Origin: Neocallimastix lanati (nom. inval.)
Taxonomy: Eukaryota > Neocallimastigomycota > Neocallimastigomycetes > Neocallimastigales > Neocallimastigaceae
Assembly (NCBI GenBank): GCA_016946835.1
Contig: JACVTC010000158.1
Location: 320,001 to 345,000, forward strand
Length of the DNA stretch: 25,000 bases
Direction: 5' to 3'
The position numbers and the translations under genes are program-made. Shown here in pieces: positions 1,281 to 23,566 of this stretch. Numbering within the stretch: the first letter of the stretch is position 1; every line of letters begins with the position of its first letter. The notes below the pieces were generated by a model. The model saw only the letters and a program-made list of their open reading frames with translations, was not told where the DNA came from and did not search any database.

Positions 1281-1581
1281 TTAATATTACTATTTAATAT
1301 TATTATTTAATACTATTTTTAATATTTTTTTTTTTATTTTTTTAAAAAAAATTAATACTATTATAAAATACAAAATATGTTAAAATATAAAATTTGATTG
1401 GTCTATTTTTCTTTATTTTTTAAATTTTAAATTTTAAAATTGATCAATAATTTAATATATATTGTTTATTAAATAAAAGTAAAAATAATTTCAATATAAA
1501 TAAAAATATTACTGAAAATTATATTTTAATTTTTATATCTTTTAAATATTATTATCATTTTTTTAAAAAAAAAAAATTGAA

Positions 1582-4008: not shown

Positions 4009-7000
4009 TTTTTCTGAAATTGATCAATGAACATTTTTATTAAAATTTGATTAACTATAGTAAATTTGTTCAAAAATGTTGTCCAAATTTCATTATTTAA
4101 TATTTTATTTATACAAAAACAACAATCTATAACAGTTCTACGAATATCTGTTAAAGTACAAGAGAGACCCTATATATGTAAAATATTTTTTAAAAAAAAA
4201 AAAAAAAAAATATTTGAATATATAATTACAATAATAAAAAATGATTAATAATAATATTAACAAAATAATAAAAAATACATATTTAGTAAATTGATTAATA
4301 TATTTGTATTTACTTTTGATAAAACCTGCTGAATATCATCTATATATTCTTGTAATTCATTTTGACTGAATCTAGAAATAATTTGACTTAAAATTTCAAA
4401 TGCAAAACTTTCTGAAGTAGATCGATAAGAAAACTTTAAATTTTGTTCATAAATTGAATTTGAGTCTATATTAAAATTAAATTGCCTATTCAAATAAGAC
4501 AATATAGTTTTTAAACAAGATATCTTATCTAAATTTTGGGCATAAATTTTAAGTGTATTTTCTGTTGTAATATATAACTTTTTTTAAAAAAATATATATA
4601 TAAATATATTAATATTGGTAATATTATATTAGGTATTTGATTAAATTTAAATAAATGAACTTACTTCTTCCGATTTTTTATTCATATATTGATTAATTAA
4701 ACAAAATAACCCATTTTCTTTTCCTTTAAAATATAAAGTTTGATTCTTCATTAAATTTTGTAATAACAACAAAATATATTCCTGTTCATCATTCTAAAAC
4801 AAATATATAAAAAAATTAATATTAATATATAATATTATTTTTAATTATTTTAATCAATTTTTGATTTAAAAATATCTTTATATGTTTATTTATTTACATT
4901 ATTATTAAAGGTTTGCAATTTTTGAATTAAAATTAAATAAATTCTTTCAAACCATGAATTCCATAATTCATTAACTTTCATTAATTTTTCATTTGTTATA
5001 TTTTTATCATTTTCAATATTTGATAGACGTATTAAATTTCTAAATACACTTTCATTTGGTTTTGATGATTTTAAATTTTCATATAAATTTGAAAACAAAA
5101 TATCTTGATCTATATTTGCAGAAAAATACTTTGCATTTGGTGTTTCTTTTATGAATACTAAAAAATAATAATAAAAATTAATAAATTAAATTTATTATTG
5201 TTATTATTGTTATTATTATTAGTATTGTTTTTATTATTATTATTATATAATATAAAAAAAAAATATTTATTAAAATACATACGTCTTTCAATACCTAAAG
5301 GTTTTTTATATTTACAATAATTATCATTTATAAAATCTAAATTAATATAATGATTCTTTGATGCTTTTAGTGTGATATTACTTGTTCGTCTTTCAATTTT
5401 ATTGATATTATCAGCTAATAATAATTTATTTTCATCTGATTATGAAATTAAATTATATTATAGATTATAAAATTTTAAATTTAACATTAATTAAGCAAGA
5501 AATAATAACGTTAATAAAGTTAATATAAATTTTTTTACCTAAATCTGGATTATTCATTGATAATTCATTTTCATGTTGACTGATTTCCATAGTCATTGTA
5601 TTATCCTTATCTTTATCTGTATCAGTATTAGTATCAGTATCATTATTACTATTATGATTATCCTTATTAAATTTATTTTGAGTAATATTTTCATTTAAAT
5701 TTGTTTCAAAATTATTCTTTGGAGTTGACTGATCTGTATCATCATCAATCTGTATAACTTCAGTATCAATATTCAGTTTATTTAAATTTTTAACATTCGA
5801 TTTATTTTTTTCTTCTATACCGTTATCTTTATTATTTATATTTAAAATTTCATTTTTACTATAACTACTATCAATAACAATAATATCATTTTCCTTTATT
5901 GCTTTGTTTTGCTTTAAATTAGGTTGAGGATCATCCAATATTATAATACTTTCATATTTTTTAGGCTTAGATTCTAATTTCCGTCTTGCATTCTCTTTTT
6001 CAAATAACATTTCACTATTTTCAATAAGGATAACACTTCTATCACTACTTAATTTTTCCTTTTTAATAGTTCCATTTTCTGTATTATAAAGTATATCTTT
6101 GGGTTCTTCTTTAACCTTATTCATTAATGACGGTTCAATTTTTATTTTTTTTACATTTAATGTGCTATTATTCATTTCCGTTTTCGAATCAGCTCTATTT
6201 AATTTAAGATTTAAATATTCTTTTTTCATTCTTTTATCTTGATGACTAGTGTTTAACCTTAATATATTCGGTTTCTTAGATAATTTATTTTCACTTAATT
6301 CATCATTTTCTTTAATATATATAATTTCTTGCTGTTGTTTCTGTCTTTGTTTCTGTTGTTTCCTCTGTTGCTTTTCCTGTTGTAATATTTGTTGTAATTC
6401 TTGTTGCTGTTGTTGTTTCTGTACCTTTTTAATATTATCAGTTTTTTGCATGTCAATATTAGTATTATTATTATTATTACCATTATTATCATTATCATTA
6501 TCATTTTCATCAATTTTATCTATTTTTCTTTTTTTTGAAGATGACAAATCATCATGTGAAAATGATGGCAACGAGTTATCTGACTCGATAATATCACTTA
6601 ATTTAACATTTCTATGAGTAACAAATGATTTTTCATTTATTAAATATTTATTACTTGATTGTAAATTTGAAATAGATGTTTCTTCAGGAAGCATAGAATA
6701 TTGTTCATCAATTTCCATTAAATTTTTTATTAATGTATTCCCTGATTTTTCATTTATTTTCTTTACTTTATTTAAAGGTATATTATCTTTCTTATTTATA
6801 TTGCCTTCATTATTATTACTGTTTATAATCTTTTCCTCATTTTTAGTAATATTTTTATCATTTAAATTAGTTATTGCTGTTTTAATCGCTTTAGTTTCAA
6901 CAACCGTTGTTTTTATTGTTTTGGAAGAGTCATCAATAATAACATCACTATCATGAATTTTTATTTCTTCATCATTAAAGTTTTTATTTTTAAGGGATAT

Positions 7001-9932
7001 TTGATTATTATTATTATTATTATCATTATTATTATTGTTGTTGCTATTATTGCTATTGCTAATATTGTTGTTGTTATTATTAATAGTAGTATTAATTTTA
7101 AATAATTTACCATCATTTTTATCCTTATTATCATTTTTATCTCTTTTTCCATTTTCAATTTTAGTTTTATTTTGATCTTTCACATCTTTATAATTTTTTA
7201 CTACCTTATTGTTCTCTTCAATAACAACATTATTATTACTTATACTAATTTCTAAATTCTTTGATAAATTTTCCTTTGACGATTTAATTACTTCATTATC
7301 AATTGTATTTCCTTGGTTTTGATGATTTTCTTTATCTTCATTTTCTATTTCTTCCTCATAATTATCATATAATATTGTTTCCTTGGATTTTTCAAATTCA
7401 TTATCTAAAATTTCAATACCTTTAATTAATTGATTATAAATTTCTTCAGAAAAATATTCTCTTATATATTTTAATGTTTTATTATTTAGTTTTTTTATAC
7501 ACCATAAAAATGATATCAAAGAACGGCCATTTATTTCATTTCCAAATGTTGTAGATATCCAATTTCCTAATAAAAGAATCATTGACTTCAAATGTAAAAA
7601 ATAAAAAAAAAATAAAAAAAAAAAAAAAAAAAGTTAAGAATATACAAAATTTAATATTATTTCATAGATAAATACATATATATATACTATAAAAATATAT
7701 ATATAAAAAGGATATTATTTTCATTTTTAAAATAAATGCATGGGTTTCGTTTTCCAATTTTATAATCAATTTCAACCTCTTTATTTGATTTAGCATTCAT
7801 ATAAAATATATTTTCTGACATATCATTTATTAATAATTCAATGATCCATTCTAATAAACATTCTAAGATTTCATTCACATTATTATATTTCTTTCTTGAT
7901 TTTCCATTTTTTGCAATTAATTCAATTATAATATTTTTCATTATAGGAACAGTAAACTTTTCCTGTTTAATCCAGTTAACAATATTGTTAACTTTATTTA
8001 TTGAGAACTCTGAATATATATTTTCTTTATTAGATAATTTTATATTTTCATCATTTTGTTTTTTAATTTTTAATTCTATTTCTATAATCTTTGGTATTAA
8101 TTGTTCAATAGATATAACTCTTGTTTTTAAAAGAATATCCAGTGTTTCTTCATTCAATATCTCTTTCAATATATCATCAGAAGTATCATTTAAAAATGAC
8201 ATAATGCTTTCGTTAATTTGTAACGAGGTTCCAAGTTTATTAACTTTAGAGGCTTTAAAATAATCAATTAATTCTTTTAAAGCTTCAATTCTTATTTTTG
8301 GATTATCTACTTCTTTAAATTTTTTTATTAAACTTTGTTTAAATAAATAAGGCGTTGACAACGAAGGAGAATTAGGTGTAATACCGTTATGTTTTTTCTT
8401 TTTTGAACTAGACTTTGGAACAATTATTTTTGAATTTTCATTCTTAACCTCAATTAAATAATTAGTACTACTTTCAATTTTTTTCAGTTTATTATTTTTT
8501 GTTGGCGTTGTTTCTTGAACTTGGCTAGAATCAATTATATCTTTTCTATTTTTACTATCTGAACTAATAATTTTAGGTTTTTTAATTTTCTTTGGTGTTG
8601 TGAATTTATTTTTAACTTTATCATCATTATATAATTTATTTAAATCATTATTAAAAGCACTACTAATATCATCTTCATTTTTATTTATCATATTACTATT
8701 AGATAAATCTATTATCTTCTTTTTTGATGGAGATTCAGAAATATTGTTATCATCTTGATTCAAATGATTTTCTTGATTTATATTTTCAAATAATTTCAAT
8801 TTTTTGGCTGATTTTGAAGGAGTATTTTCTGGATCATAATCATAATTATTATTTTCATGTTTTTGTTGAATCATTTCCTCTTTGAAGAGACTCCTTTTTC
8901 GTTCACTACTCGCCTTTGGTCGGGGTGATTTTGATGGTGTATTGATTATTATATTATTTTCATTATCTATTTCTTTTTTATCGGACATAGAGCTATAAGA
9001 TCTTTTAAGACCAATAATTGGTTTTTCCTTTTTAGTTTTTGATGGAGTAGTTTTACTATGTTTTTGTTGTTCTAATGTTAAATTATTAAAATTAAAATCA
9101 ATGACCTGACTATCTGAACTTAAATTTTTATTGTTTTGTTTATTATTCCATGATTTAATATTATCTCTTTCTAAAATTTTTCTCTTTTTTAATATGCTGA
9201 TAGATTTGTTTTTCTTTTTCAAAGCTTGTATTTTATTTGAACTGGATGGTATTCCCGGATTTTTCTCTAAATACTTTATAAGATTTTTTTTAGTTACCGA
9301 ATCAAGTGAATCCATAAATCTATTTTATTATTAATTAAATTCAGAAAAATAAAATTTTAGATATTATTTATTTACATATAATTTTAATAAAATGTCTACT
9401 TAAATATATCATGTATATATAAAAAAATATTCAAACTTAATACATTTAATATACATACTTATTAGCTCTTGGTTTCCAATGAATATTTATTAAACTAAAT
9501 ATTTTTCTACTTGTTTCACGAATAAATTGACCTGCATCTTGTATACTTTTTTTTAGACAAGAAATAACTAAATCTAATCCACCAAATTTTTCAAACTTTG
9601 CTTTTTGAATGTCATTTTGAACTGCTATTTCAATTGATATACCTATTAATAATATTGAAATTTGTCTTGTATTTGTATTTTTATGCTTTTCAGCTATAGG
9701 TGTACTAAGTATTTGTAAATTTCTTAAATTATATGATACATTTTTAATGATACAAGCAATCGTATGCGAACTAATTGTTGATATAACTTTATTAGTCTGA
9801 TTAATTAAAGGCATTAATTTTGATATTATTATATCTGAATATACATCAAGTTGTGCTTTAAAAACATTTGCTAAATCTATAATTGATAAGCATGACGTTA
9901 TACAAAGTGCTGTTCTTAATGATTGAACCTTA

Positions 9933-9963
<31 letters not shown>

Positions 9964-11840
9964 TGTAATAATAATAACAATAATAATATATTTAAAAAAT
10001 TAAAATTTATTAATATAAATATAATAAAAAATTACATATATATGTTTTGTTTTATTTTAATAATAAATTATATTTAATTACTGATATTAATATATTATCA
10101 ATGGCTGGTTTTAATAATTTTATATTATTGTTTAAAATTTTATTATCCTTATAAAGTATTCCTCTAAATCTTTGAATTGATTTATTTCTCATATCCCAAT
10201 TTTCTTCAGTTTCTTTTCCAATAAATGATTTACAAAAAGTACTAATTTCATTATCAATATCTGAAATTGAAAAGAGCTTTTCAATAAATAAAAATTAATG
10301 ATAATATGAATATCAATTCATTATTATAATATATAATTAATTAATATATTTATATTTAATTTAATGATTACTTCTATTTTCTTTGGTGTTGGATAGGAAG
10401 GTATTGTTCCAGGAATAGCAAAAATAGAAGATAACGGAATAATATTTTTACTATTAATCATTGATTTATTAGTATTATCCTATGAATATGATTTATAAGC
10501 ATCAATATAATTATTTAGATACTAATATTTATTATTATAATATTAAATTAATAATAAAATTTTACATATACTCGAGGTGAATTCATTTTTTCAAAAATTT
10601 CTTCATATATATTTGATTTAATTTTTAATTTTTCGCATTCTTCTTTTACTTTTTTTTTATAGTTGTCTTTTTCATCTTCATCTTTTTTTAAACTTTTTTT
10701 TTTTATAAAAAAAATTATAAATAGATTGAAAAAAAATAAAAAATCATCATTATCAAATTTAATAATTATTAAATTAATATATATATATATATGTCTATAT
10801 AATATTTGTTTATATTTAATAAATTACATATAATTTGTAATAAGAAAGTTTTTGGCTGTTTCCTGTAAAGATTTAATAGATGCATTTAAGCAAGCTACCA
10901 CTGGTAATATAAAAAAATCAATTGGAAAATTTTCAAATGAAGTGCTGCATCGAACTAACCAATTTATTAACTTTCAATAGCATTGTTTATTTCAGCATTA
11001 AAATATTTTAATAATTAAAATAAAATAAAAAAAGAAAATAGAAAAAAGAAAAAAATTAATATATATCAAATACATATATATATAATTGATAAAATAAAAT
11101 ATAAAAAAAAAAAAAAAAAAAAAATACCTTTTCCTTTTCATTATTTGAATCAATTACAAATCCTTTTAATATGTCATTTTTAAATTGAGTCATTAAATCT
11201 TTATTTTCTTGTAAATGAAATTTCAAAATTAAACTATACATATCTATTAATGAATCGTTGGATAAAATCCCTGTTTGCCCGCTTTCTTTTAATTGTTTAA
11301 TTAAAGGATACAAAAGTTTATTTATATGAACTTTTATTACATTTTCAAATTCAGATTCATTTATATTTTTAAGATGCAAAAGATGTTTTTGATAAGTATT
11401 TAAAAATAGTAAGCCTTGAGAGTTTAATTCTTTATTATTAGATAAAAATAATTTTAAAATTAAATTTGTAATTTTTTCTGCTGCATCTTTCTTTAATAAA
11501 TAAAATTTTAAAATATAAAATATATATTAAGAGAATAAATAAATTTAAGATATTTATAAAAATTAAGTATTTCAGAAGATTTCATATAATAATTTATGCT
11601 TTAAATATATATAATTACTGATATTGATTTCAAATTTCTTAATTTATCTTCCAATTTTTCAAGATTATCTAACAATGAATTTACATCTAAATTAATGTGA
11701 CATCAAAAAAATTATAGATATTAAATTAATATAAAAAATATATCTATATACATGTTTATAAATAAATGAAAATAAAATAATATAATACCATTATCATTGA
11801 TATTTGATTGAATATCTTTTAATATAAGATTAAATTCCAT
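4002..11840 (-). CDS. CLASP/Stu1-family microtubule-stabilising protein with TOG-like arrays, 15 exons
   Basis: Exons in transcript order: 11789-11840, 11619-11686, 11128-11490, 10828-10970, 10572-10692, 10372-10479, 10082-10276, 9459-9928, 7716-9319, 5539-7593, 5283-5435, 4898-5157, 4665-4793, 4314-4577, 4002-4169. Total 6153 nt, an exact 2051 codons including TAA. Residues 1-250 look like a first helical TOG-type array (DSxx..TAKNFL-like repeats). Residues about 286-508 match the CLASP N-terminal TOG domain, with EENWDMRNKSIQRFRGIL, then SLRTALCITSCLSIIDLA and FIRETSRKIFSLINIHWKPR. A basic, Ser/Pro-rich linker follows, then a middle helical region, a very long Asn/Gln/Lys disordered stretch, and a C-terminal helical array (LLQNLMKNQTLYFKGKENGL; last exon TLTDIRRTVIDCCFCINKIL). 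CLASPs bind tubulin through TOG domains at plus ends, spindles and kinetochores. At 2050 residues it is longer than usual (about 1500) because of low-complexity inserts. Exon borders were chosen by phase and splice signal; the family call is firm, individual borders less so. Confidence 0.87.
7594..7715 (-). other. Putative U12-type AT-AC intron in the CLASP gene
   Basis: On the minus strand the intron begins ATATCCTTTTT (7715 downward), an exact match to the U12 AT-AC donor, and ends TTTTTTAC at 7594. Joining 7716 to 7593 is phase 1 and keeps the frame (KNENN then LKSMILLLGNW). A branch-site-like TTCTTAAC lies at 7640-7633. No good in-phase GT..AG pair exists: the obvious GTATAT donor downstream forces a stop codon in the next exon. 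The branch A to acceptor distance, about 40 nt, is longer than the usual 10-20 and is filled by T runs. Confidence 0.6.
9933..9957. repeat. T25 homopolymer, read as A25 just before a CLASP acceptor
   Basis: Within the CLASP intron 9929-10081. On the coding strand it is A25 followed by TAAG and then the exon beginning GTTCAATC, so a purine tract sits where a polypyrimidine tract is normally expected. Confidence 0.9.
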
Positions 11841-16918: not shown

Positions 16919-19067
16919 TGTGTTATTATTGCTTTTATTATCATTATTATCACTATCATCACTATTTTTATTATCTTTTCTTTTATTCTTTATATTTTTT
17001 CCAAATATATTTTTATTATCTTGATGATTATCGCTATTATTGGAGCCTAAATTTTTATTTTTTTTATTTAATCTAGAAAATTTATTAACACCAGCACCTG
17101 ATAAGAATAATCCCATATTAAAGAATCTTTTTTTATGTTTTTTTGCAACATCTTTAGTTGCAGCACTTCTGGTGTCATGAATAATTAATGTAATCATTTT
17201 AGTAGTAATAACAATTGATGGAAGAGAATATAAAATTGGTGTTGCCTATTATTTTATTTAAAAATTAAAATATACTTAATATATTTACATATATTATTTT
17301 TATTTACTGCTTTAATGTCTGTTAATTATACTTACACCAAATGCAACAGTTGCCATGATTTTTGCGAAATACTGTTTTTTATTTATTATATAAATAAAAT
17401 TTTAATATAAATATACATATAATAATATACCTAAAAAAATAATACAATTTTACTAACAGTATTAGGACTTTGGTCACCAAAACCTAATGTGGTCATTGTC
17501 ATAAATGTATACCAAAAAGCATCAAGATTGGATTGTCTAATTTATTTTCAATGCATAATAAATTTTATAAATATTACATTTTATTATAAAAAAAAAAAAA
17601 AAAAAAAAAAAGATCTATAAAATAATAATAAATTAACATACAATTCACAGGATAAACTATTTTCATTAATTGTTCCATTTTTATATTGACGTTTCCAATT
17701 CTATTGTTTTAAAAAAAATTTTTTTTTTAAATAACAAATGCAATTTAATAATAATATATATATTATAATTATTAAAATTAATATTTACATAATTATATAT
17801 AATTATTTTAAACAAATAAAAACAAATAAAATTAATATAATTTTTTATAATTATATATATATATATATATATATATTAATTTTCATACTTGTGAAGCTTC
17901 ATCCAATGTACATTTTGATAAATCTGCATAAAAAATAACTCTTGAACAAAATATCATGACAATAAAATAAAGAATAATAACAGATATAATTTCATAAATT
18001 GAATCCTTAGTAGCTCTAATAATAATATGAAAGAATTTAGAAATACGATTTCTTAAATAATAAAAAATACTTAAACAAGTATAAAGACGACAACACATTA
18101 AGAGAAACGATATCAATCCATAATGATTTATATTAATTAGACGACATTGTGGGAAAAATTCCTCAATAATAAAAGGAAGGCATCCCAAGAATTCCATTAT
18201 ATGAGGAATATTAATAAAGCCTTTGTAAAGCTTAAATAAATTTTTAGTTACTTTAACATCTTTGTAATTAACAATTACATTTTTACCATCTTTCTGATTA
18301 CCTCTTATAGTTGCTTCCAACATTGCCAAATGACGTCTTTTACGTATAGGGTATAAAATAACATCTGCAAGAAAATAAAGAGATAACTGTATGAAGAATA
18401 CTAATGAAACTATACGCCATGCCTTTCTTTCTGATTCTGTATCTTGTGTCTTAAGTTGTGTTGAATAGCATTCCAAAAAAAATGAAAGATATAAAATAAT
18501 AGCATGATATATATTAAAAACAGTAGCCAACCAAGATTCACGTGGACTATATATTGCATCAGTAAAAGCATGATTAAACATTTTTGATATATGATATTGA
18601 AGATTGGTAGGCTCATCCATATCTCTCGCTAAGGTTGGTTGACTCTTGCTCATACCACCACTTTTTAATGGTGTATGGTCATCTGATTTTAATGGAATTG
18701 TTTTATGTTGTAAATGACTTGTTTTAGTATCAATAGATAAATAATCAAAACTTTTTGTAAAATTATTACTTTTATCTGGTAATCTTAATACCGAATTCTT
18801 CCTACTTTTAAAATTATTTGATTGTTCTATAGCTTTTGTTTTTGCTTCTAATTTTGGGTCAATAAATAAATTTTTTAATTTTGTAATATCACTTTCTTCT
18901 TTTGATTCCTTATGACTTTCTTCAGTTAACTTGTTTAATGTATAATTATCAAATGAAGTAGTTGTAAGTTCAATTTTTGGTATATTAAATTTTTTACTAA
19001 ATTCTTCCTGTGCCTTTAAGGCATCAGTATCTTCTTCCATTTTACCTTTTATATTTGAATCTGACAT
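15881..19067 (-). CDS. Six-TM potassium channel with TLGFGD filter and weak S4
   Basis: Exons in transcript order: 17889-19067, 17642-17700, 17458-17536, 17336-17371, 15881-17245; 905 residues plus TAG, phases 0, 2, 0, 0. The first 170 residues are cytosolic and Ser/Lys-rich. S1 is about WLATVFNIYHAIILYLSFFL, S2 about VSLVFFIQLSLYFLADVILY, S3 in the NIPHIMEFLGCLPFII region, S4 in ISFLLMCCRLYTCLSIFYYL, S5 about ISVIILYFIVMIFCSRVIFY. The pore helix and filter are DAFWYTFMTMTTLGFGDQSP, where most K channels have TVGYGD. S6 is MATVAFGATPILYSLPSIVI. The roughly 440-residue cytosolic tail has about 20 consecutive Asn and several Ser/Asn runs, ending in a helical stretch (HYQTCLDEIEYVKKREKTLN). S4 lacks the Arg-every-third-residue ladder, so voltage gating is doubtful. 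Exons 3 and 4 have exactly the lengths of those in the paralogue at 22129. It should act in a cell membrane; which one cannot be told. Confidence 0.85.
16863..16918 (-). repeat. (AAT)n coding a poly-Asn tract in the TLGFGD channel
   Basis: About 20 consecutive AAT codons on the coding strand in the cytosolic tail, with further AAT/AGT-rich stretches on both sides. Pure codon repetition suggests recent microsatellite growth rather than selection for the sequence. Confidence 0.9.
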
Positions 19068-22000
19068 TTTTTCTATTTTCTTTTTATTAATTATTATTAA
19101 TTATTTTTATTAAATTTGCTCAAAGTTAATAACTTTTTTTTTCATAATTATATATATATATTATATATATATATATATAATTACTATAATATTGTATATC
19201 CGCTGAAAATATTTTTTAATTATATATATAAATATATATAGTTTTATTATATTATACTATAATTAAGTTTTCTAGATTTTATAAAATTTTAAAAAAATTT
19301 ATAGTATTTCTATTTTTCACCTATATTTCCAAGTTATATTGTTATATACAAAGGATAAATATATTATTAATTTTGTCAATAATTATCTTTTTTTTTAAAA
19401 AAAAAATAAAAAATAAATATATTTTATTCTGTTTCTTAATATTTTGTTTACCTTTTATAAATATATAAACTTATAAAATATAATATATCAATTATTATTT
19501 ATCAGATATATATTATATATTTTTATATTCTATCATAAATGTGTATCCATAAATTTATTATATATATGATAATTTATAAAGGTTTCTTTAATGTATAATT
19601 TTATTTTTTTTTACGTTATATCTTTTAAATTATCTTTTCATTCAAAAAAAAAAAAGTTTTTAATACATATTTATATATAAAATAATAATAAGTGAATTTC
19701 TAAATATAAACTTCAATCCTGATTAAAATTAAATTTCAATTAAATACTTCAACTGATAAATTTTAATATATAAAATACATAAAATATTAAATATAAATAT
19801 TTCTAAATGTAATTATATATAAAGTTTTTTTTTTATTTATTTATTTATTACTGTTATTATTATTATTATTATTTATCAAAAAAATAATATTTTATATATT
19901 ATTTTTCAAAATTAATAATTTTTTTTAAATAAAAAAAAATATAAAAATAATAATAAAAAAAATTAAAATAAAATAAAATAAAAATATGAAAATTTACTTT
20001 AACAATATTTATTATATAATATTCATATATTGGGATTTTATATAATTTTGTATTATAATAAGTTTTATTGACAAAAAAAAATTTTTTTTTATTATTTAAT
20101 AATTTTTTTTATTATTATAATATTTATTTTTTTTTTTTTTTTTATTTTTTGTAATTAATTTTATATTTATATTTGATGTATTCAATATATAAATAAATTT
20201 ACTATTATAATAAAATATCAATTAAAAAATAATAATTAATAAATAATTATAAATATAAAAAAAAAATAATTATTAAAAAAAAAATTAGATTTTATAAATA
20301 ATGGGAAAAAGAAAATATAAAATATTATATATATAAAAAAAAAAAAAAAAAAAAAAAAGATAAATTATTTAATATTCATCTAATTTCTGTATAAATTTTT
20401 AAATTTATGATATGGTCAATTAGCATTTTATATTAAAAACTTTACTTTATTATTATTAAGGTTTATGTTATAATATTATAATATATTAATGTGAATTTAC
20501 ATATATAGGATAAAAATTTTTATTTTTATTTAAAAAAACTATTATGAAAAAGAATTTGAATATTTTGTTTTTGTTTTTTTGTTTTTTTATTTTTTTTGTT
20601 TTTTATTTTGTTTTTTAATTTAATTATATAGTATTCAATAAAAGTTAATGGATTATAATTAAAATAAATATTAACTATAAAATTATAATTATTATAAAAT
20701 AAAAAACTTTAAATTCTGGTTTTATCATTAACAGATAATTAATGATTTTATCTGAATTATTTTTTTATAAAAATATATTAAAGTAACCAACAAGTTTAAA
20801 TTAATCTATAATTATTTAATTAAAAAATATATTTTATAATTATATTATTAATATAACTCAATATATATTTATGTATATGTATTATTAATTGATTATATGC
20901 ATAATTTATTTAATATATAGTTTTTTTTTTTCAAATGAATAAATTTTATAAAATCTTTTAAGTTCATCATTTTTGTAAAACATTTAAATTTGATGAATAA
21001 AGCCACAAAACCAAATATTTAAAAAATTAATATAAATTTTTTATAAAAAGATATATATAATAATATATTATAAATATTATATATACTTATAATAATATAA
21101 TAATAGTATAAAAGAACAAAAGTCATTTCATTTTTCTTTTTACTAATAAAGTATATCTTTAAAAAAAAAATATTATCGAAATTAAAAAGTATAAAAAATA
21201 TATACTATACAATAGATGGATAAATATGTATGCACATATTTTTATGTTATTTAATAATTAGTTAAAAATAAAAAAAATTAGATAATAGCACAAATTGATA
21301 AAATATTTAAAAATTATACTTTTAAAAAATATAACGTAATTTAATAATATATATATTATTTTGTTTCTTTTCGAAATACAAATTAATAAAATAAATAAAA
21401 AAAAAAAAAAAGGAAGTAAAGAAAAAAGAAAAAGAAAAATAAAGAATTAGAAAAAAAATAAAAATAAGAAAATAATAAAATTAAAATACAATAAAATAAT
21501 AATAAATATTATTAATTAATTAATTAAAATAAATTATAGAAATATATGTAAAATAAAAAAAAAATAAAAGAAATCTAATTCTAAAAATATAAATGATATT
21601 TTGAATAAATTTTATATACCGAAATTTTTATATACCAAATAAAAAAAAAAGTAAATATAATATTAATAAACAATTTTATATTTATATATTTATATATCTT
21701 TATATATATATATAACATATAAAGATTAATGATAAACTTTTATTGTTTATCATTAATATATATGTTTGTTTTTTTATTGTAATTTAAATAATGTTAAAAA
21801 TATAAATTTCAAATATATTTATATTAATTAAAATACTAATATATTATTATATGTTTGTTAATATAAATTACCATAAAGCAGTATATATTATTTAAACATT
21901 TTTATTAACAATAAACGAGATAAACCATTAAAATAAAAAATAAAATAAAATAAAAAAAAAAGTATAATTATGTTATTTATTTTTTAATTTGTAACCGAAA

Positions 22001-22128
22001 TTATATCTTATAAATACAATAAAACAAAACACATAATAAAAAAAAAAAAAAAAAAAAAAGTAGTTAAAAATAAATAATTTAACAATTAATTATTTAATAC
22101 ATAAACTATTAATTTATTATAAGACAAA
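19068..22128. promoter_or_regulatory. 3-kb divergent intergenic region between the two potassium-channel genes
   Basis: It separates start codons at 19067 (minus) and 22129 (plus), so both promoters lie within it. The sequence is almost entirely A/T with short TATA tracts and homopolymers, an A20 run near 20338-20358, and a poly-A tract at 22039-22059 about 70 bases before the start codon at 22129. No ORF, RNA gene or long GC-containing motif was found, apart from the small hairpin at 21725-21757. Confidence 0.65.
21725..21757. repeat. 13-bp hairpin upstream of the TIGYGD channel
   Basis: ATTAATGATAAAC (21725-21737) and its exact complement (21745-21757) with loop TTTTATT. It lies about 370 bp before the start at 22129. 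Because of the AT composition it may be fortuitous. Confidence 0.6.
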
Positions 22129-23566
22129 ATGTATTCACAAGCATATCAAGAGAAATATGTTAATGCAGCGAAAATGCTTGCACTTCAACATAATAATAGT
22201 CAACAAGGAATAAAAACAAAGCCAATTCGTAGTAGAAGTGGATATGGATTTGACGGCAGAATTAGAAATAAAAAATATGATAATCTTTTTGATAGTAAAT
22301 TTGCAAAATATGTAAAGCATTACATGGAAACAGTTGTTATGCTATCAGTTTTGGCATTTAACTTTCAAACTTTACCAATATTACGTAGAACAAAGATCGC
22401 ACGTGACATATGGCAATGGTTAGAAATATTTTTCACCATAAATTATATTATAGATTGGATTATACAACTTTATTTCTATCCATATTATACAGATGATTCA
22501 AAATTAAAGAAAAAGAAAAAGGTACCACCAACCAAAAAGCAATGGGCTTACAAAGGTTATTTTGAAAGAATTAGTACATATATTAATTTACTTTGTTGTA
22601 TTCCATTATTTTTAGAATTTATTTTTCCAAGCATAAAATTTGACAATTTTGAAAAGGCATATTCAAATTCATGGATTATTTTAGTATTTCGTTCATTCCG
22701 TGCTATCAGATTCTTCCAAAATTTATATACTTCTCGTACTACTTCAGGAAAGATGATGAATTATGTAATTTTATCATTAAAAATGGCATATCCTGGTATT
22801 ATTTCATTTATTATGATTGTTGCAGTTGTTTTTCTTTGCTTTGCTGGAATTTATTATTATATTGAAATTACATATTGTGAACTTAACGAAAATAATGTAA
22901 TATATTTAGTATTCATAATAATTATTATATAGAAGTTAAATGATTTTTATTTAATCAATCAATATTGCTAATAATGATAATAATAATAATAAATAGGAAT
23001 GGATCTTTAAAGAGGATGGATTTGATTTAAAAGTTTATAAAGGTGATGCTTGTTCAGTGTAAGTATTATTTAATTACTATTATAAAAAAAAAAAAAAAAA
23101 TAGTAAAAAATAAATAAAAATAAAATAAAATAAAATAAAAAAAGAAAAAATCAACACAATATATATATATATTATCAATTAAATTATAAATAATATTACT
23201 ATTAATAATGCTATAATATAAAGTCAAAGTATTATAGATTCTTTATGGTATACTCTCATTGCACTTTCTACTATCGGATATGGTGATTATATTCCATTTT
23301 CGGTAAGTCATTAATATTTATAAATTTTATATGAAATATATAATATTTATTTTATAACGTCAATAAATATTTATATTTGAATATTCGAATACATAGGCTC
23401 TGGGCAGAGTAGCAACATCAATTGCTGTTATGGTAAATATACATATTATAATACATTTTAAAAATATTGTGAATTTTATTTTTGCAATAATAATAATAAT
23501 AATATAAAATACCTTATATTTATATATATATATATTATAATTATTTAAAATATAATATATAAATAT

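Follow-up and report, generated by a model that had tools for sequence, protein, structure and literature searches.

This locus raises the question of whether the CLASP gene in the window (the whole 25,000-nucleotide stretch that was analysed) contains an intron of the minor, U12-type class, and whether the genome around it retains the genes that would be expected to remove such an intron. The preliminary description had placed a U12-type AT-AC intron at 7594..7715 on the minus strand, and its donor, branch and terminal AC could all be located. The intron is 122 nt long, lies in phase 1 and has a GC content of 0.08. Its 5' splice site, ATATCCTTTTT (7705..7715, minus strand), reads RTATCCTTT from position 7715, its branch site, TTCTTAAC (7633..7640, minus strand), is UCCUUAAC-like and one base off TTCCTTAAC, with the branch A probably at 7634, and its 3' splice site AC (7594..7595, minus strand) is the first A[CG] to follow the branch. 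Between the latter two lies a T-rich spacer (7596..7632, minus strand) that holds no AC or AG and has a longest T run of 19. Read on the minus strand, the exon ending in AATGAAAATA is followed by the intron, ATATCCTTTTTATAT...TATTCTTAACTTTT...TTTTTTAC, and then by the next exon, which begins with ATTTGAAGTC (ATTTGAAGTCAATG in a longer reading). The branch site is predicted to form a duplex of -9.4 with the U12 of the same genome (U12 box GAGUAAGGAUAAU). In its donor ATATCCTTT, its branch TTCTTAAC/TTCCTTAAC, its AT-AC ends and its phase 1, the intron is like the U12-type AT-AC introns of animals, plants and early-diverging fungi.

The reading frame agrees with this anatomy. As had been claimed, the phase-1 join restores the frame by connecting the ORF at 9324..7687, whose frame stops at 7687, with the ORF at 7633..5465. 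The upstream exon spans 7716..9319 (minus strand, 5' edge as set by a home-made model) and the downstream exon 5539..7593 (minus strand, 3' edge by eye). Neither exon matched any Pfam family at E 1, and the name CLASP, which had also been proposed beforehand, rests on a separate stretch of the same gene, 9446..9955 (minus strand), that matches CLASP_N (PF12348, 4.3e-25). When a paralog or a second haplotype of CLASP was sought, the gene itself and one 26% match elsewhere were obtained, and no second gene spans the junction. In the home-made model (11788 to 9320), the gene's other introns all have GT-AG ends and GTA donors (8 of 8) and a GC content of 0.05-0.11, so that the earlier statement on the neighbouring introns also stands.

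Pairs of RTATCCTT and YYCTTAAC occurred at a mean of 0.005 per 25 kb in 400 order-2 Markov copies of the window, which itself holds one such pair. No such pair was counted when 124,746 non-N bases from the neighbouring contig were scanned. Fifteen stretches, as far as the contig end, were covered, and parts of them read N. Near the window, long stretches reading as N are found in L012, L017, L019 and L020. Reverse-transcriptase genes lie in L014, L015 and L019, and about 100 kb from the window, on the same contig, there is a ketoacyl-synthase gene of the polyketide-synthase type in L010 (5-3652, plus strand). Within the window, two ORFs (17883-19100, minus strand, and 22123-22932, plus strand) resemble ion-channel transmembrane proteins by eye; taken as single exons, they have no Pfam match at 0.01. 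A minor GT-type donor motif, GTATCCTTTAATTA, stands at 11311 (minus strand) within an open CLASP coding exon, and is probably due to chance because no RTATCCTT and YYCTTAAC pair was counted there.

On these features, the stretch 7715-7594 of the CLASP gene is very probably a genuine minor AT-AC intron. The kind is known already. The preliminary description had minor-spliceosome introns in a few early-diverging fungi such as Rhizopus, and U12-type introns are indeed reported for Rhizopus and Phycomyces (PMC2846911); what needs correcting is that this phylum has been published too, since Larue and Roy (2023) describe minor introns in Neocallimastigomycetes and Rhizophagus (PMC10639083). The CLASP intron therefore belongs to a known kind and is a further case of it. 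Further literature consulted comprises PMC6865273 and PMC2426677.

Minor-spliceosome genes and further AT-AC introns

The genome searched comprises 199 Mb in 762 contigs. It holds at least 150 CBM_10/dockerin matches, and 14 control genomes hold none. CBM_10-type dockerins are typical of Neocallimastigomycota, and because of these matches and the very high A+T we take the host to be an anaerobic gut fungus of that phylum, in agreement with the fungal origin suggested earlier. Rfam searches, in which a first look produced thousands of candidates per family and 39 to 48 of these were scored (46 of 4700 for U6atac), gave a match to U12 at 56.8 bits (cut-off 53), two U6atac genes at 57.4 and 56.4 bits (RF00619, cut-off 33) and a U11 at 40.5 bits (RF00548, cut-off 39, a margin of 1.5 bits), while U4atac reached 47.2 bits, under its cut-off of 53. 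No match above cut-off to U11, U12, U4atac or U6atac was obtained in the 14 control genomes; matches below cut-off, at E up to 1, were present in 8 of the 14 for U6atac and in one each for U4atac and U11. The zinc finger of U11-48K (PF05253) was matched at 33.9 bits (cut-off 21.1) in an open frame read as CPFNKNHFVTRKNYEKHYKRC, and PF05253 also exceeded its cut-off in one of the 14 control genomes. Of the components for which the preliminary description had suggested searching, U11, U12, U4atac (below cut-off), U6atac and U11-48K are matched here, and in having minor snRNA and U11-48K matches the genome is like the hosts of known U12-type AT-AC introns. Read by eye, the second exon of the U11-48K gene (L006, about 1408-1495, plus strand) seems to be joined from a donor that begins GTTG or GTTT, a departure from the usual GTA.

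Further AT-AC introns were sought by searching the genome for the branch motif by itself, which covered few branch forms. The form TTTCCTTAACTT occurs at 105 places, 100 of which were examined; these form 77 clusters, many of them in GC-richer, coding-like or repeated DNA, and nine of the 100 stretches were read out in full. RTATCCTT was present within 220 nt upstream of TTTCCTTAACTT in two of the 100, versus none of 100 when the other strand of these stretches was read. Shorter donors were not enriched upstream of the same 100 places (5 vs 3 for RTATCCT, 5 vs 6 for RTATCC). Both places with RTATCCTT (L101 and L114) are phase-1 AT-AC introns when their frames are read by hand. A second form, TTCCTTAACTTTTTT, occurs at 19 places, 16 of them new and three already in the first set, and yielded one further AT-AC intron (L143); seven of the 16 newly examined places are copies of one repeat. 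A third, TTTCCTTAACTA, occurs at 57 places. The reversed patterns outnumber the motifs throughout (587 vs 105 for TTTCCTTAACTT, 22 vs 19 for TTCCTTAACTTTTTT and 182 vs 57 for TTTCCTTAACTA), which means that the branch motif shows no enrichment by itself and that the evidence lies in the upstream donor.

Among the further genes with AT-AC introns of the same make, eIF2A (L101) is the clearest. Its joined protein matches PF08662 at 1.4e-24, and the sequence across the junction (...YSPHSR-IICIAGFGNL...) aligns without gaps to the solved eIF2As 8dys and 3wj9, which we take to be those of human and fission yeast. L114 is Cdc24-like, with the join falling between CDC24_OB1 (PF17246, 4.2e-4) and CDC24_OB2 (PF17245, 2.5e-3), both under the cut-off, and for L143 weak matches (0.025 and 0.077) point to an RPC82-like gene. 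The donor ATATCCTTTT is common to all four AT-AC introns, that of CLASP included, and these sister genes support the reading as a minor intron.

Distance from branch to acceptor

It had been proposed that the branch of the CLASP intron lies about 40 nt from the acceptor, stretched by the growth of T runs. The distance stands: the last intron base lies 40 nt beyond the branch A, and the spacer is 88% T. The explanation holds only in part. The corresponding distances are 35 nt in eIF2A, 42 nt in the Cdc24-like gene and 74 nt in the RPC82-like gene, hence long in all four introns, while the longest T runs are 19 (CLASP), 9 (eIF2A), 6 (Cdc24-like) and 39 (RPC82-like). Because two of the introns (9 and 6) are without a long T run, T-run growth can account for the distance only partly. 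The long spacer of L143 was partly selected for, since its search motif contains a T run, but the two TTTCCTTAACTT finds are free of this bias. The first A[CG] past the branch is the acceptor in 4 of 4 AT-AC introns. According to PMC3584512, the defining features of U12-type introns are the 5' splice site and the branch, the optimum distance from branch to acceptor is 11-13 nt, and a distinct polypyrimidine tract is lacking. Unlike such introns, all four found here have distances of 35-74 nt and T-rich spacers; the CLASP intron accordingly lacks two traits that are typical of the class without defining it, a spacing of 11-13 nt between branch and 3' splice site and the absence of a pyrimidine tract. 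Going by the four introns, a long distance from branch to acceptor is likely a property of this lineage.

A putative U6atac variant and how it might be read

The two U6atac genes (L002, 1501-1649, minus strand; L003, 1501-1646, plus strand) carry the same changes, the Rfam consensus GUGUUGUAUGAAAGGAGAGAAGGUUAGCAC being replaced by GUGUUGUAUGAGCCGAGAGACAGUUGGCAC in both. The 5' splice-site box AAAGGA has become AGCCGA (AAG to GCC at 12-14), and the AGC triad has become GGC. The AAG-to-GCC change lies within the donor-pairing box of U6atac. For the CLASP donor, the predicted pairing is -2.8, versus -7.1 for the Rfam consensus. Both copies are like RF00619 in matching the whole model above its cut-off, in keeping GAGAGA and in their predicted pairing with U4atac (stems I and II) and U12 (helix I), and unlike it in reading AGCCG for AAAGG and UUGGC for UUAGC. 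The altered triad has its counterparts: UGCC in U12 matches the GGC of U6atac (helix I predicted at -6.1, versus -3.4 for the consensus), and a GCC in U4atac stands opposite the same GGC. Stem II of U4atac/U6atac is wholly complementary (predicted -17.1), while stem I (-7.6) is predicted to be weaker than in the consensus (-13.6). By whole-model score and predicted partners, the two genes are classed here as a putative U6atac variant that departs from the family at the 5' splice-site box. Their first 54 nt are identical, with upstream flanks that are 54% and 79% identical and 300 nt downstream that are 97% identical; this identity alone proves little because the flanks themselves reach 54-97%.

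The U11 gene resembles RF00548 in its core, CGGAAUCGAUAUCAAGAGAUUUCG, and Sm-like site, AAUUUUUG, and differs from it in two shortened stem regions and, if the RNA starts there, in a 5' end of AAAAAGAAUAGGC in place of AAAAAGGGC. An RNA starting at AAAAAGAAUAGGC is predicted to make 9 of 10 pairs with donor positions +2 to +11 (-5.7); the Rfam start gives only -3.0. Incorvaia and Padgett (1998) reportedly found that minor splicing requires U6atac to pair with the 5' splice site. One tentative reading, to which we give somewhat less than an even chance, is that the minor spliceosome has been rewired in this fungus. The AAGG box of U6atac would have stopped reading the intron start, and the G-for-A change in its triad would now pair with U12. 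U11, with the 5' end AAAAAGAAUA, may read the donor instead. It would then be U11 and proteins, and not U6atac, that hold ATATCC, and the acceptor would be located by a scan of up to 74 nt that ends at the first AC or AG. Odd minor snRNAs, including a U6atac with a divergent second half, have been described in Mucorales, and the donor box is not mentioned in the portion of that source cited here (PMC4133162). A search of open-licence literature turned up no account of an altered U6atac donor box or of long branch spacers.

The oddity might instead concern U6atac only, a normal gene having been missed by the assembly or being too diverged, and the two copies found not being the working ones. 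We consider this rather unlikely. Some assembly stretches do read N, and only 46 of 4700 U6atac candidates were scored, but neither of two patterns for the canonical box found such a gene: over the genome, GTTGTATGANNNGAGAGA hit only the two known genes and one further place, and GGAGAGANNGTTNGCA hit nothing. Moreover, pairing is predicted between the copies in hand and this genome's own U4atac and U12. The additional GTTGTATGANNNGAGAGA place was rejected as a U6atac: by eye it looks like part of a retrotransposon frame, and at E 1 it matches no RNA family. The U6atac pattern had no hits in viral_contigs or genome_contigs.

Still less probable, and in our judgement very unlikely, is a state of decay in which the minor spliceosome is failing or gone and has left the minor introns behind as relics, which either stay in the transcript or are removed by the major spliceosome. 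Such decay would fit the loss of the usual donor-pairing bases from both U6atac genes, the U4atac score below cut-off and the finding of only four AT-AC introns in a search that covered few branch forms. It fits poorly with the fully paired stem II and the GCC of U4atac opposite the GGC of U6atac, and with two U6atac genes that are identical over their first 54 nt but not in their upstream flanks, a point tempered by their similar downstream regions. The sister introns, in addition, hold exact donors and branches, and the frames of their genes need their removal.

Competing junctions and the proposed mechanism

Junctions at the CLASP locus were listed for donors from 7900 to 7687, acceptors from 7640 to 7541 and introns of at least 40 nt. 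In this range 92 are frame-compatible, comprising 60 AT-AC, 25 AT-AG, four GT-AC, two GT-AG and one GC-AG. From the donor at 7715 there are two in-frame AT-AC joins, ending at 7594 or 7633, and the latter ends within the branch motif and would encode a phenylalanine run. A GT at 7687 (GTATAT) was rejected as a donor, being out of frame when read by hand. The in-frame GT-AG candidates are 7878/7586 and 7776/7586; neither they nor the GC-AG junction have a GTA donor, and all three lose coding-frame DNA upstream of 7716. A GT-AG reading of the gap is thus possible in frame and was judged unlikely.

The case for an ordinary intron at 7776-7586, cut by the major spliceosome and with accidental AT-AC signals, comes chiefly from the home-made gene model, which consists of plain coding composition with hand-set penalties and, contrary to the AT-AC reading, prefers GT7776/AG7586 whether AT-AC is barred or allowed at an extra penalty of 6 nats. 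We weighted the U12 signals above this choice because the model has no knowledge of them. The donor at 7776, GTTGAAATT, is poor but not impossible. Only two of the 44 introns that survived a composition filter score lower, and GTTGAA starts five of the 259 unfiltered introns of the noisy first pass, the window's own probably among them, while the U11-48K gene seems to use a similar donor. GTTG donors are nevertheless absent (0 of 44) from the low-GC set, which is itself composition-filtered. The AT-AC join retains 69 nt (VEIDYKIGKRNPCIYFKNENNLK) with a GC content of 0.22 and a coding score of +4.5 nats, all of which 7776-7586 would lose to an intron, against the GC of 0.05-0.11 in the other eight introns of the gene. 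The donor-branch pair would furthermore have to be a 0.005-per-window coincidence. We regard the GT-AG junction as highly improbable.

Under the preferred AT-AC reading, the U11 and U12 snRNPs would recognise ATATCCTTTT and TTCTTAAC, as the predicted pairing with the snRNA genes of this genome suggests. U4atac/U6atac would then build the catalytic core. As 3' splice site, the first AC or AG past the branch would be taken, across a spacer that spans 35-74 nt in the four introns. The anatomy of the intron, the reading frame, the snRNA-like and U11-48K-like genes and the sister introns are observed here; splicing of CLASP transcripts at the AT-AC junction by the minor spliceosome is what we infer. 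If general in the lineage, the long spacers would show that a short distance between branch and acceptor is no universal rule. A genome that retains ATATCC introns alongside two U6atac copies with a changed box, the only copies found, would offer a natural experiment in how the donor is really held.
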